From: Actinomycetes bacterium
GTDB lineage: Bacteria; Actinomycetota; Acidimicrobiia; Acidimicrobiales; Acidimicrobiaceae
Assembly: GCA_021785255.1 (NCBI GenBank)
Contig: JAJYGA010000080.1
Location: 1 to 34,438 of the forward strand
Reading direction: 5' to 3'
Length of the DNA stretch: 34,438 nucleotides
Shown here: in pieces, positions 21,822 to 27,657 of the stretch
Layout: each line of letters begins with the position of its first letter
How positions within the stretch are numbered: position 1 is the first letter of the stretch
Notes under the pieces: model-generated
Databases searched by the model: none
The model's input: only the letters and a program-made list of their open reading frames with translations
What the model was told of the DNA's origin: nothing
Position numbers and translations under genes: made by a program

Positions 21822-22448
21822 ATGAATAAGAAAGATAACCTAACGCAAAAGACAAGTGCTCGAGGATCAAAGTCTTTTTTGCCGCGGTTTCTTCCTAACT
21901 TGGTTACGGCTACTCGAATTTTACTCTTACCTCTATTTGTCTACCAAGTGCAAAAAGGAACTTCGCCACTTTACATCGCTGGGACTTTAGCGATAATGGG
22001 AATCACAGACTTTCTAGATGGTTTTGTTGCTCGTCGTATCGACGGAGTAAGTACCTTTGGAAAGGTTTTTGATCCGACCGCTGACAGGGTTGTATTGGTC
22101 GTCGTAGCAATCGAATTAATCCATGCGCACTATCTACCACTTATAATTGCAGTCCCTCTGTTGGTGCGAGAAGCTCTTGTATCGATTTTGATGATCTATC
22201 TCTTTTTTGTGCAAAAAACTAGAGTGGACGTACTTTGGGTTGGCAAAGCTGGAACATTTGCACTACTTTTGGCTCTTCCTGCTCTCATCTTTGAGGGGCA
22301 CTATGGTGTCTTGGGTAGTAATATCCATAGTGCCGGTGAAGTGATCGCTGGCTTTGGAACGGTAGTTCTATATTACGCTGGACTTAGTTATGTAAAAGCC
22401 CTGAGGAAACGATCAAGTGGAACGCAAATCCACCAAGATGGTTGTTAG
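21822..22448 (+). CDS. CDP-alcohol phosphatidyltransferase (PgsA-like)
   Basis: A 208-residue integral membrane enzyme with the full CDP-alcohol phosphotransferase signature DG-x2-AR-x8-G-x3-D-x3-D at Asp66-Asp88 (DGFVARRIDGVSTFGKVFDPTAD), preceded by Asp63. About five or six membrane helices follow. The family transfers a phosphatidyl group from CDP-diacylglycerol to an alcohol. The PNLVTATRILLLPLFV start resembles phosphatidylglycerophosphate synthase, and in mycobacteria a pgsA2 gene lies just upstream of the gcvH-garA cluster. The alcohol substrate is inferred, not shown. There is no Shine-Dalgarno site. Confidence 0.87.
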   Translation: MNKKDNLTQKTSARGSKSFLPRFLPNLVTATRILLLPLFVYQVQKGTSPLYIAGTLAIMGITDFLDGFVARRIDGVSTFGKVFDPTADRVVLVVVAIELIHAHYLPLIIAVPLLVREALVSILMIYLFFVQKTRVDVLWVGKAGTFALLLALPALIFEGHYGVLGSNIHSAGEVIAGFGTVVLYYAGLSYVKALRKRSSGTQIHQDGC

Positions 22449-22489: not shown

Positions 22490-25042
22490 ATGAAGGCAGT
22501 CATAATGGCCGGGGGGGAAGGTACTCGACTTAGACCGTTAACCTCCACTCAACCTAAACCGATGCTACCCATGGCAAACGTTCCCATGATGGAACACATA
22601 CTACGCCTTCTTGTAAAGCACAGCTTTGAAGAGGTGATAGTAACAGTCGCTTACCTTTCCAACTCTATAAGAACTTTCTTTGGTGACGGAAGTGAATTTG
22701 GAGTGAAGATCACTTATGTATCGGAAGACTCTCCTTTGGGTACTGCCGGTTCAGTTGGAAATGCCCGAGAGCTCCTGAAGGATCGATTTCTCGTTATATC
22801 GGGCGATGTCCTGACAGATATTGACTTGGGAGCGGCGCTTCAATACCACGATGAACGCGGAGCGACTGTGACTGTCGTTCTGCAGAGGGTTGAAAATCCG
22901 CTGGAGTTTGGAATCGTTACCACCGACAACGACGGGGCAGTAACCAGATTCTTGGAAAAACCGTCATGGGGAGATGTATTTTCCGACACGGTCAATACCG
23001 GCATCTATATTCTTGAACCTGAGGTGTTTGACTATATTCCTCTTGAGACCGTTTCTGACTTTTCGTCAGACGTCTTTCCCCAGTTGCTTAGCGCAAAGCG
23101 CCCGGTATTTGGATGGATATCCGAAGGATACTGGGAGGACGTGGGTACCTTGGCCGGATATCTCAAGGCCCATCGAGATATTTTAGATGGTCGGGTGAAG
23201 GTGTCAGTCGATGGCTTTCAAGTGAGACCAAGTGTCTACTTCGGACCAGGCTGCCAGGTGCATCCAGATGCAAAGATCGAAGACTGCGTCATTATTGGAC
23301 CGAACGTCAGAATAAGTGCCGGGGCGCATGTGCGCCGCTATAGCGTGCTTGGAGCTTCAACGCGCGTTGGAGAGGACGCGGTAGTTGAAAACTCCGTTAT
23401 CTCAGACCACTGTTACTTGGGTCCGCAGGCGCATGTAACGGGAGCCGTAGTTGGAAGCAACTGTGACTTGAGAAGAGGCGTTACCTTAGAAGATGGAGTG
23501 GTCGTCGGGGATGACTGCTACATTGGCGAAGAGGCTGTTGTTCAACCCTTCGTCAAGATCTATCCGTCTAAGAATGTTCAGTCCCGAACTACCGTCAATA
23601 CCTCTATCGTTTGGGGATCTCGAGCAGTTAGAACTCTATTTTCTGGCAGTGGACTAAGTGGACTTGCAAACATCGACGTGTCTCCGGAGATTGCCGTACG
23701 TCTTGGTATGGCTCTTGGGTCTACCTTGTCTCCTCGGTCGGTAATCGTTGCCTCAAGGGATACCTCTAAGACAGCTCGGATGCTCAAGCGAGCTGTCATG
23801 GTAGGTGCTAACGCTGTTGGGGTGTCAGTGTCTGACTTGGAGGTAGGTCCCATGCCACTGACCCGGTATCACCTTAAATATTCTTCTGCCGTTGCGGGTT
23901 TTCGTGTATTTCTTGCGGAAGATCCTGACGCGGTGGAGATCAGACTTTTTGGTTCTGATGGAGCTGAACTATCTGAATCTGAAATCCGAAAGATTGAGCG
24001 AGCAATGGCAAGGGAGGACTTTCGAAAGATGCCGTCCTCCGAGATTGGAGACATCTCTTTTCCTGGAAGGGTTGTGGAGCACTATGCAGAGTCTCTTCTT
24101 GACCTAGTAGACGTAAAGGCCATTCGGGAACGCAAGTTCCGAATCGTCATGGACTACTCCTTTGGAACAGTGGGGCTACTGCTTCATAACGTGTTGAGCA
24201 AACTAGACGCAGAGGTGCTGAGTTTTAATCCTTATGCCGCTACCGGAAGAGCCATTGCTCTTGTGCGCGAGGATCAGCGAAGTCTGGTGTCTAAATCAGT
24301 GATTGAGTCTGGATCCGATCTGGGAGTAATCTTCAACCCTTCGGGCGAGTCCTTTGAGATAGTAGATAATCAAGGAAGAGTTCTGCTTGGACAGGAGTTT
24401 GTCTATGCGATGGTGGAGCTATTTGCATCTGAAGCGACAGCAGGTGATCAAGTATTTCTTAGCGTCGACAGCTCGAACAAAGCCCTTGCATTAGCCAGAG
24501 AACATGGTATTGAGGCATATTGGGCCAAGTCTACCCCTCAAGCCCTTTGTCACGATGTACTTCAAAGTGCGTCCATCAAAAGTAACGGAGTTAGCAGCAG
24601 CGCACTAGAGCCGAAGTTTTCCGAATCCCTTACACTAGGACTTAGCCCACTGGGTTCAATGGTGTTATCAGGCGTAGTATCGGGACCCGATAGCGTTTTC
24701 AATCTGGCAAAGCTTCTGGAGGTGCTAGCTCGCCAAAACAGAGAGCTGGCAGAGATCTCCAACAGTATCCCACCGATGTTCGTAAAGACTGCTAAGACCC
24801 ATACTCCTTTTGAGCTGAAGGGTTCATTGATGCGTTATCTTTTGGAGGCCGAAGCGAGCGAGGGTGTTTTGCTAGTTGACGGTATCCGAACTACTGACCC
24901 AGATGGTGGCTTTACGCTTGTAGCGCCGGATCACGAAGACGCGCTTACCAAAGTGACAGTTGAATCAAATAGTGAATCGTCTGTTGCTGAAAAACTATCT
25001 CGCGCCATTGAGTGGGTATCTTCGATGTTGCGAGAGATATAA
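22490..25042 (+). CDS. NDP-sugar pyrophosphorylase / beta-helix / degenerate phosphomannomutase fusion
   Basis: An 850-residue three-part protein. Residues 1-230 are a sugar-phosphate nucleotidyltransferase: MKAVIMAGGEGTRLRPLTS with the signature GGEGTRLRP at 8-16, then VISGDVLTDIDL and FLEKPSWGDVFSD. Residues about 250-380 are left-handed beta-helix hexapeptide repeats. Residues about 395-850 align in outline with phosphomannomutase/phosphoglucomutase. In that domain the phosphoserine loop (about 464-490), the metal loop (NPSGES at 616-621 in place of a DGDxDR loop) and the phosphate-binding loop (APDHED at 812-817) have all lost the catalytic residues. The likely activity is therefore only the nucleotidyl transfer (GDP-mannose or NDP-glucose type), and the mutase domain would be structural or regulatory. 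ATG 22490 is chosen because AGGGA lies before it; an earlier ATG at 22442 overlaps the previous gene. Confidence 0.85.
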   Translation: MKAVIMAGGEGTRLRPLTSTQPKPMLPMANVPMMEHILRLLVKHSFEEVIVTVAYLSNSIRTFFGDGSEFGVKITYVSEDSPLGTAGSVGNARELLKDRFLVISGDVLTDIDLGAALQYHDERGATVTVVLQRVENPLEFGIVTTDNDGAVTRFLEKPSWGDVFSDTVNTGIYILEPEVFDYIPLETVSDFSSDVFPQLLSAKRPVFGWISEGYWEDVGTLAGYLKAHRDILDGRVKVSVDGFQVRPSVYFGPGCQVHPDAKIEDCVIIGPNVRISAGAHVRRYSVLGASTRVGEDAVVENSVISDHCYLGPQAHVTGAVVGSNCDLRRGVTLEDGVVVGDDCYIGEEAVVQPFVKIYPSKNVQSRTTVNTSIVWGSRAVRTLFSGSGLSGLANIDVSPEIAVRLGMALGSTLSPRSVIVASRDTSKTARMLKRAVMVGANAVGVSVSDLEVGPMPLTRYHLKYSSAVAGFRVFLAEDPDAVEIRLFGSDGAELSESEIRKIERAMAREDFRKMPSSEIGDISFPGRVVEHYAESLLDLVDVKAIRERKFRIVMDYSFGTVGLLLHNVLSKLDAEVLSFNPYAATGRAIALVREDQRSLVSKSVIESGSDLGVIFNPSGESFEIVDNQGRVLLGQEFVYAMVELFASEATAGDQVFLSVDSSNKALALAREHGIEAYWAKSTPQALCHDVLQSASIKSNGVSSSALEPKFSESLTLGLSPLGSMVLSGVVSGPDSVFNLAKLLEVLARQNRELAEISNSIPPMFVKTAKTHTPFELKGSLMRYLLEAEASEGVLLVDGIRTTDPDGGFTLVAPDHEDALTKVTVESNSESSVAEKLSRAIEWVSSMLREI

Positions 25043-26112: not shown

Positions 26113-26595
26113 TTGATCGCTTGTCTTCAATGCGGACACGTCAATCAGGAAGGATCGCGTTACTGTTCCTCCTGCGGACGGCCACTTACGCTTCATGAGG
26201 ACGAGACTACTTCCAGCTTCATACAACTTGACTTGCTGAGTGAGGGTGGAGACGAAAGATACCTGAAAGCTTTATCAGAAGTACCCAGGGGTGATGCTGC
26301 TCTGGTAGTCAAATCTGGAGAAGGAACTGGATCTTGGTTTGGTCTTGATCGGGAGATCACTACGATCGGTAGACATCCTGAGTCGGACGTATTTTTAGAC
26401 GATATAACCGTTTCAAGACGTCATGCTGAGGTCCGTAAGGTCCAAGACCGCTACGAGCTAAAAGATACAGGGTCTTTAAATGGAAGTTATCTGAATCGGG
26501 AACGTGTCGAAGGCGCCCAATTAACTCATGGGGACGAACTCCAAATAGGAAAGTATCGTTTTACGTTCGTATGCTTTAACAGCGAAGAAGAGTAA
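26113..26595 (+). CDS. garA: GarA/OdhI-type FHA regulator with N-terminal zinc ribbon
   Basis: A 160-residue protein. Residues 1-25 are a zinc ribbon (Cys4, Cys7, Cys18, Cys21). Residues 31-36 are ETTSSF, the exact type of Ser/Thr-kinase phosphorylation motif found in GarA/OdhI. Residues about 60-155 are an FHA domain with GRHPESDVFLDDITVSRRHAE (Arg87, Ser101, Arg102, His104) and GSLNGSYLN (Asn123). In mycobacteria and corynebacteria the unphosphorylated protein inhibits 2-oxoglutarate dehydrogenase and controls glutamate enzymes. Phosphorylation at the TT pair makes the FHA domain bind its own tail and releases the targets. The zinc ribbon is extra compared with those proteins. The start is TTG 26113, set by AGGGGAG 5 nt upstream. 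Confidence 0.88.
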   Translation: MIACLQCGHVNQEGSRYCSSCGRPLTLHEDETTSSFIQLDLLSEGGDERYLKALSEVPRGDAALVVKSGEGTGSWFGLDREITTIGRHPESDVFLDDITVSRRHAEVRKVQDRYELKDTGSLNGSYLNRERVEGAQLTHGDELQIGKYRFTFVCFNSEEE

Positions 26596-26616
26596 AGAGA
26601 TGCGTGGAGATCTGTA

Positions 26617-27657
26617 ATGTCTGAGGCGTTAGGTTTCTTGTCGATTGGAGAGGTGCTTTCCCTTATAAAGAAGGATTTTCCTGATGTGTCTATCTCCAAG
26701 ATCCGTTACTTGGAGAGCCAGGGTTTAATTGATCCTGAACGAACTCCCTCTGGATATCGTAAGTTTTATTCCTATGACATTGAGCGACTAAAAAAGGTGT
26801 TATACCTCCAAAGAGACTCGTTCTTACCACTTAAAGTTATTAAAGATACTCTTGATGGACGTCTGGCGGAACCACCGGACGTTGTTGTGCAACCAACTTT
26901 GGAGTTTCAAGACCATGAAGACGAACCAAGTGACAACGTTGGACTGAATACGAAAGACAGAGGGGATGAACAGAGTCAACTTGTTGATTTAGTTTCACGC
27001 CTAGCTCAAAGAGATGATCTGAATTCAAAAACGACCCATATGGAGACGGAGCAGCTTGCACAAGGAGGTAGTGAAAAGACAAACAGACATGCTGTTCAAC
27101 ATAGATCCTTGGAGAACTCTACACAGGCCCCAGATACTGCCGATCATAAAGAAGATCTAGATCCGACCGATCCCAAGACAGCGATGAGAAATGCTGAAGT
27201 CTTCAACCTCCCTGTGACTCCACCTAGCGCAGCGGCCTCCTCTTTAATTGGCAATGAGCCACCTAAAGTGACCCGAGAGGACCTGCTTTCAGTCGAAGAG
27301 CTCTCTAGATTGACTGGCGCACGGCTCTCTGAGATCAACGAGATAGAGTCATTTGGTTTGATAGAATCAAAGGTAATAGCGGGGGAACACTACTACCTGA
27401 AGCTCGACTTTGAAATCGTGCAACTGGTCTTGGTCTTTAAAAAATATGGAGTGAGTTCCAGGCATCTGCGCATGTACAAGTTGTCAGCTGAGCGTGAAGT
27501 TGGTTTCATGGAGCAAGTCATAACGCCTCTGCTGCGACAAAGGAATCCACAGGCTCGTCACAAGGCTCAAGACCAACTGTCTGATCTACGAACGCTAGGC
27601 AGCTGCCTGCGGGGATATTTCATGGAGCGTCTCTTGGATAAGTACCTTCAGCTTTAA
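26617..27657 (+). CDS. ftsR: MerR-family regulator, FtsR-like, with long acidic linker
   Basis: A 346-residue regulator. Residues about 8-80 are a MerR-type winged helix-turn-helix (LSIGEVLSLIKKDF, KIRYLESQGLIDPERTPSGYRKF). Residues about 222-345 form a second MerR-like/effector domain (LSVEELSRLTGARLSEINEIESFGLI). This architecture and the place after garA match Rv1828 and corynebacterial FtsR, an activator of ftsZ. The known proteins are about 250 residues. Here the two domains are separated by a linker of about 135 residues, rich in Asp, Glu, Gln and Thr and probably disordered. ATG 26617 is 21 nt after garA, so cotranscription is likely. Confidence 0.85.
   Translation: MSEALGFLSIGEVLSLIKKDFPDVSISKIRYLESQGLIDPERTPSGYRKFYSYDIERLKKVLYLQRDSFLPLKVIKDTLDGRLAEPPDVVVQPTLEFQDHEDEPSDNVGLNTKDRGDEQSQLVDLVSRLAQRDDLNSKTTHMETEQLAQGGSEKTNRHAVQHRSLENSTQAPDTADHKEDLDPTDPKTAMRNAEVFNLPVTPPSAAASSLIGNEPPKVTREDLLSVEELSRLTGARLSEINEIESFGLIESKVIAGEHYYLKLDFEIVQLVLVFKKYGVSSRHLRMYKLSAEREVGFMEQVITPLLRQRNPQARHKAQDQLSDLRTLGSCLRGYFMERLLDKYLQL

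Follow-up and report, generated by a model that had tools for sequence, protein, structure and literature searches.

Organization of the locus

The window, by which we mean the whole 34,438-nucleotide stretch of DNA analysed here, carries a gene (22490..25042, +) that joins a nucleotidyltransferase, a left-handed beta-helix and a phosphohexomutase-like domain in a single chain, the architecture of SCO1388 from Streptomyces coelicolor. The mechanical open reading frame starts at a TTG at 22442 and ends with the stop at 25042, giving 866 residues that we number from that TTG; the likelier start is the ATG at 22490, which yields 850 amino acids with the N-terminus MKAVIMAGGEGTRLRPL. Directly upstream lies a gene for a ClsA-like CDP-alcohol phosphatidyltransferase (21822..22448, +; Pfam CDP-OH_P_transf), whose best NCBIfam match is ClsA, below cut-off. 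An FHA-domain gene and a MerR-family gene downstream (26113..27657, +) belong to a conserved neighbourhood, whose order of LapA (opposite strand), GcvH, FHA, MerR, BFN and MerR is partly kept as far as a Streptomyces-like locus, L101.

The nucleotidyltransferase domain (22493..23188, +; residues 18-249; Pfam NTP_transferase, 201 bits) has its catalytic residues intact, with GxGTRxxPxT, PKP, the metal Asp residues and EKP all present. The signature Gly and Arg, Lys39, Asp122, Asp126, and Glu172 and Lys173 of EKP are invariant in 82 of 82 fused relatives (most columns of this domain hold 82 rows since L075 is a partial row), in keeping with a first-pass annotation of the window that had proposed a fusion to a probably active nucleotidyltransferase. 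The model for mannose-1-phosphate guanylyltransferase of the Rv3264c type (NF052502) matches the fused protein with 279.9 bits, below its cut-off of 440, and GDP-mannose is a plausible annotation for the product, as a candidate specificity. Close paralogues of this half occur without a mutase domain (L096, L098 and L100), and in L097 nucleotidyltransferase and mutase apparently lie as separate pieces; these four, 46-48% identical to the window nucleotidyltransferase, are not among the 83 fused sequences considered below.

The beta-helix of hexapeptide repeats (23225..23569, +; residues about 262-376) leads into the mutase-like domain (23633..25039, +; residues 398-866), which contains all four mutase subdomains. 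Its start had been placed at 23670, a position that does not match the reading frame and falls about 12 codons past the domain's first residue. Pfam recognizes only subdomains I (398-528) and II (547-645), while the NCBIfam model TIGR03990 spans the region nearly end to end (model positions 3-442 of 444), at a score of 169.6 bits that is below the cut-off of 439. Subdomain 3 carries an insertion of about 20 residues (24563-24619; residues 708-726) common to only about 5 of the 83 fused sequences, the corresponding columns being a gap in about 94-95% of rows.

A mutase fold without its catalytic loops

We compared the domain with six intact mutases, two from the host genome (L001 and L002) and four others (L083-L086, of which L086 has slightly varied motifs such as DPDADR and GEGNG). 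Where intact mutases carry the phosphoserine loop SASHNP, the window protein reads VAGFRVFLAED (23891..23923, +; residues 484-494), with a gap at the Ser column itself; the metal loop DGDxDR has become FNPSGES (24332..24352, +; residues 631-637), with Asn, Ser and Glu in place of the first, second and third Asp; and the phosphate-binding loop RxSxTEP has become VAPDHED (24920..24940, +; residues 827-833). These three replacements had been read from the sequence at first pass, and we confirm each at its homologous place. The sugar-binding loop GExSGH, which the earlier reading did not list, is likewise gone, replaced by GLSPLGS (24638..24658, +; residues 733-739), so that its statement that every catalytic loop is lost holds for all four. 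The Arg of GIRG is also missing (S406), and the Lys of NGIK is an Arg.

Had the catalytic Ser and metal loop simply moved elsewhere in the protein, the case for a dead enzyme would fall; a pattern search for SHNP, DGDxDR, RxSxTEP and GExSG found no match in all 866 residues, and the host phosphomannomutase (PMM)-like protein L002, our positive control, carries all four loops. A sequencing or frame error can be set aside as the cause, because closely related sequences in separate assemblies (L005-L007, L034-L036) show the same losses, as do the 83 fused rows overall.

The overall fold, by contrast with the loops, is predicted to be kept. An AF2 model of the mutase domain reached a pLDDT of 83.2 and a pTM of 0.85, from an alignment of 5 fused proteins and 10 intact mutases in which the intact ones favour a mutase fold. 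Superposed on solved mutases it matches the archaeal enzyme 9du5 both in Foldseek (E 5.6e-36, TM 0.83) and in VIA-align (Z 42.3, 2.9 A, 439 residues); by sequence the closest solved relatives are the archaeal phosphosugar mutases 1wqa and 9du5. The insertion in subdomain 3 is poorly modelled, with pLDDT of about 35 in places, and a full-length model built from 5 sequences (pLDDT 50) places neither the mutase domain nor the nucleotidyltransferase relative to the other. Taken with the TIGR03990 coverage, the loop comparison and the motif search, the predicted fold supports the first-pass view of a full-length pseudo-mutase, and we regard the mutase half as very likely a pseudo-enzyme, a judgement drawn from its sequence.

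The loss is shared by all fused relatives examined

A wider survey indicates that this loss is not peculiar to the window protein. The fusion occurs in 39 of 60 relatives and, as a match reaching the mutase part, in 115 of the 296 genomes sampled from the phylum, the host's own genome counted in both; the latter figure leaves out 17 genomes (of a tally of 132) whose match stops short of the mutase part. It is also found in a small second phylum, where 12 of 17 genomes have full-length matches to its representative L037 (its own genome counted), and plasmid-borne copies occur in Streptomyces and in Sulfuricurvum kujiense (Campylobacterota). No fused relatives were found in viral contigs. From 30 of the 39 relatives with the fusion, and from 41 loci of the 115 phylum genomes, together with the other lineages, we assembled 83 fused rows covering Actinobacteriota, the second phylum and one Campylobacterota plasmid; L003 and L004 (the window itself) and the near copies of included rows L034-L036 were excluded. 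Among the host's close relatives is Ferrithrix thermotolerans (L035; 84% identity).

All 83 share the loss, and none has intact loops, in a sample that leaves cyanobacteria, Firmicutes, Chloroflexota and others outside. Within the phosphoserine motif SHNP, His and Pro are retained in no row and Asn in 2, and the Ser column keeps Ser in 39; the metal loop keeps its first Asp in 62 rows, its second in 9 and its third in 2 (79 have Glu), with the following Arg in 42. Because that Ser and first Asp persist in so many rows, some fused members, unlike the window protein, may still hold part of a metal site, to judge by these columns. The same residues, with the recurrent Glu at the third Asp, would suit a domain turned to altered chemistry, with another nucleophile or substrate; but the window protein has neither the Ser nor any of the three metal Asp residues and no catalytic loop elsewhere, and we consider such an enzyme decidedly improbable.

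The phosphate-loop Arg is found in 0 of 83 rows, its Ser in 4 (Asp in 74) and its Thr in 1 (Glu or Asp in 54); the sugar-loop Glu is absent throughout (0/83), and 3 rows retain the GIRG Arg. These counts bear on the first-pass suggestion of an allosteric sugar-phosphate sensor, in which the dead mutase would bind a hexose phosphate or bisphosphate and thereby tune the nucleotidyltransferase. The retained fold and cleft framework would suit such a sensor, as would the Arg at the NGIK Lys, present in the window protein and 35 of the 83 rows. Ordinary hexose-phosphate binding is nevertheless unlikely because the Arg that would grip the distal phosphate is missing from every row and the loop Ser and Thr are mostly acids, and we disfavour the sensor as an unlikely reading.

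Purifying selection on the dead domain

The mutase domain is under strong purifying selection, with subdomains 3-4 drifting faster. Just one pair, L034 and L036, has unsaturated synonymous sites in all parts (other pairs being too saturated for most); its dN/dS is 0.009 for the nucleotidyltransferase, 0.010 for mutase subdomain 1, 0.031 for subdomain 2, 0.053 for subdomains 3-4 and 0.040 for the whole mutase domain. The domain has also gained conserved residues of its own: a KGxxMR motif (24818..24835, +; residues 793-798) in which the frequencies over 83 rows are 0.93 for K, 1.00 for G, 0.99 for M and 1.00 for R, together with R475, the Glu at the third metal Asp and the Asp at the phosphate-loop Ser. 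Strong conservation extends to F400, G407, N410, R475, E636, D750, G814 and P829, some of them shared with intact mutases. In a tree, 36 of the 83 fused mutase domains formed one clade against the six intact mutases (support 100/100), which fits a single origin, though the tree has no fixed root and includes only six intact mutases.

These observations weigh against one account of a domain without catalytic residues, that it is the decaying relic of a formerly bifunctional enzyme and has no present role. Such decay could explain why subdomains 3-4 are more variable, insertion included, but it sits poorly with purifying selection, newly conserved residues and occurrence across the phylum, and we hold it to be highly improbable. 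The dead domain has been retained in many related bacteria and therefore probably has a non-catalytic job.

A conserved ClsA-like neighbour

The ClsA-like gene is a constant companion of the fusion among the window's relatives: of the 28 whose flank is long enough, 27 have it within 250 nt on the upstream side, the exception being L029 (the window enters this count as L004; L012 and L021 were left out, their upstream flank being too short). Of 7 Actinobacteriota loci from further afield, 5 have it upstream at that distance, or 6 if 1046 nt is allowed, and it was not found beside L037, L099 (flank 1376 nt) or L107. Nor did we find it beside the unfused nucleotidyltransferase paralogues L096, L098 and L100, or adjoining the split L097.

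Plasmid-borne copies have other neighbours. On the Sulfuricurvum kujiense plasmid pSULKU01 (L078:2366-7138) the fused gene sits between a phospholipase A gene and a patatin-like phospholipase gene, overlapping the latter by 4 bases, which provides a phospholipid link in another phylum. The Streptomyces plasmid fusions (L079, L081) lie downstream of a muconolactone isomerase-family gene and near a short-chain dehydrogenase, with ClsA not found there; they are possibly a specialized lineage.

The host has other proteins of both kinds. Its separate mutases, the PMM-like L002 and the GlmM L001, have intact loops, and its further nucleotidyltransferases are an unfused protein (L130; best model the Rv3264c type NF052502, 276.5 bits, below cut-off), a long RmlA (L129) and a GlmU-like protein (L131). 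Since the host carries all five, the fused protein is probably not its only source of these activities. The GlmU-like gene (L131:1456-2583, contig C151) encodes 375 amino acids matching positions 4-349 of the 488 in the best GlmU model; because the match ends at 349, the acetyltransferase domain seems from the sequence to be missing its C-terminal part. Another gene begins right after the stop of this one.

Role of the mutase half

Our best explanation, which we think somewhat probable overall, is that an ancient pseudo-phosphohexomutase serves as the non-catalytic arm, structural or allosteric, of a sugar-1-phosphate nucleotidyltransferase whose activity is predicted from its sequence. The arm might shape the oligomer, or it might have a place where a partner protein, or some ligand that is not a hexose phosphate, can bind; it would thereby adjust the supply of NDP-sugar. 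Given the state of the phosphate and sugar loops, such a structural or allosteric arm appears more likely than a hexose-phosphate sensor.

That a ClsA-like gene is so closely linked suggests a role in cell-envelope or phospholipid synthesis, a neighbouring gene being only a hint, and the constancy of this linkage supplies a direct first hypothesis. In a more specific version, the pseudo-mutase arm would couple sugar-nucleotide synthesis to that of anionic phospholipid of the cardiolipin type across actinobacterial classes, binding the ClsA-like enzyme or its lipid, not a sugar phosphate, and so setting nucleotidyltransferase activity; we offer this as a quite unlikely proposal. The neighbouring phosphatidyltransferase could alternatively use the nucleotidyltransferase product, an NDP-alcohol or NDP-sugar, directly, in which case the dead mutase would serve to dock the fused protein onto the membrane enzyme. 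Adjacency in 27 of 28 relatives would accord with this, as would the existence of a natural cytidylyltransferase/CDP-alcohol transferase fusion (NCBIfam NF041135, to which the upstream neighbour is a weak match). That neighbour, however, scores best as a cardiolipin synthase of the type that condenses PG with CDP-diacylglycerol, and the second-phylum L037 is without ClsA beside its fusion, so that we find direct use of the product improbable.

Comparison with known systems

A close known counterpart is SCO1388, a GDP-mannose pyrophosphorylase with a PMM domain described as seemingly bifunctional (PMC5982138). The same work reports that a SCO1388 insertion mutant remains phage sensitive and that SCO3039 and SCO4238 supply most of the GMP activity (PMC5982138). 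In another study, insertion in SCO1388 alters actinorhodin production in an inconsistent direction, the gene being listed as a 'downmodulator' while decreased production is reported (PMC6585502). SCO1388 has the identical domain order, and the Streptomyces-like locus L101 has a like neighbourhood, with ClsA upstream and FHA, MerR, BFN and MerR further on; we infer that L101 is the SCO1388 orthologue and, from the numbering and L101, that SCO1389 adjoins SCO1388. The description as seemingly bifunctional differs from what we see in the sampled relatives L050, L051 and L053 (about 41% identical to the window protein), which are without the mutase catalytic residues.

In our searches of an open-access library, as far as titles and the starts of abstracts go, we found no report of the loss of catalytic residues in a SCO1388-type fusion, and the available sections on FtsR (PMC6683498) do not discuss the locus of the fused gene. 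We set aside a study of Bacillus thuringiensis rfbM (PMC9007996), which deals with a guanylyltransferase that carries a cupin-domain annotation. What was already known, then, is the fusion as an annotation, and the control of sugar-nucleotide synthesis by a pseudo-enzyme; a dead mutase fused to a nucleotidyltransferase and widely kept in a phylum appears to be unreported in the papers searched. Of the two halves of a fusion read as bifunctional, very probably just one is functional, and these genes should therefore not be counted as phosphomannomutases in pathway maps. Streptomyces coelicolor, for which mutants exist, is a tractable test organism.

With the archaeal-type phosphoglucosamine mutases and phosphohexomutases of TIGR03990 (9du5, 1wqa) the window protein shares a full-length fold at 23-25% identity, differing in being without all four catalytic loops. 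Structures of PGM5 (aciculin; 6y8x-6y8z) and of the GlmM-CdaA complex (7olh, 9g69) were among the VIA-align matches. PGM5 has a phosphoglucomutase fold, no known activity and a non-catalytic role; it differs from the window protein in being eukaryotic and unfused, and it retains more of the active site. The GlmM-CdaA complex resembles the proposed arrangement in that a mutase fold is complexed with another enzyme, GlmM there being an active enzyme. A functional parallel is GMPPA, described as a non-catalytic allosteric inhibitor of GMPPB (PMC11228364): there a dead enzyme relative regulates a sugar-nucleotide pyrophosphorylase, as the fused domain may do here, but the dead GMPPA partner is a nucleotidyltransferase on a separate chain, whereas in the window protein it is a fused mutase, making this a bacterial case in which a dead enzyme domain is kept across a phylum, fused to what is probably an active enzyme of the neighbouring step.
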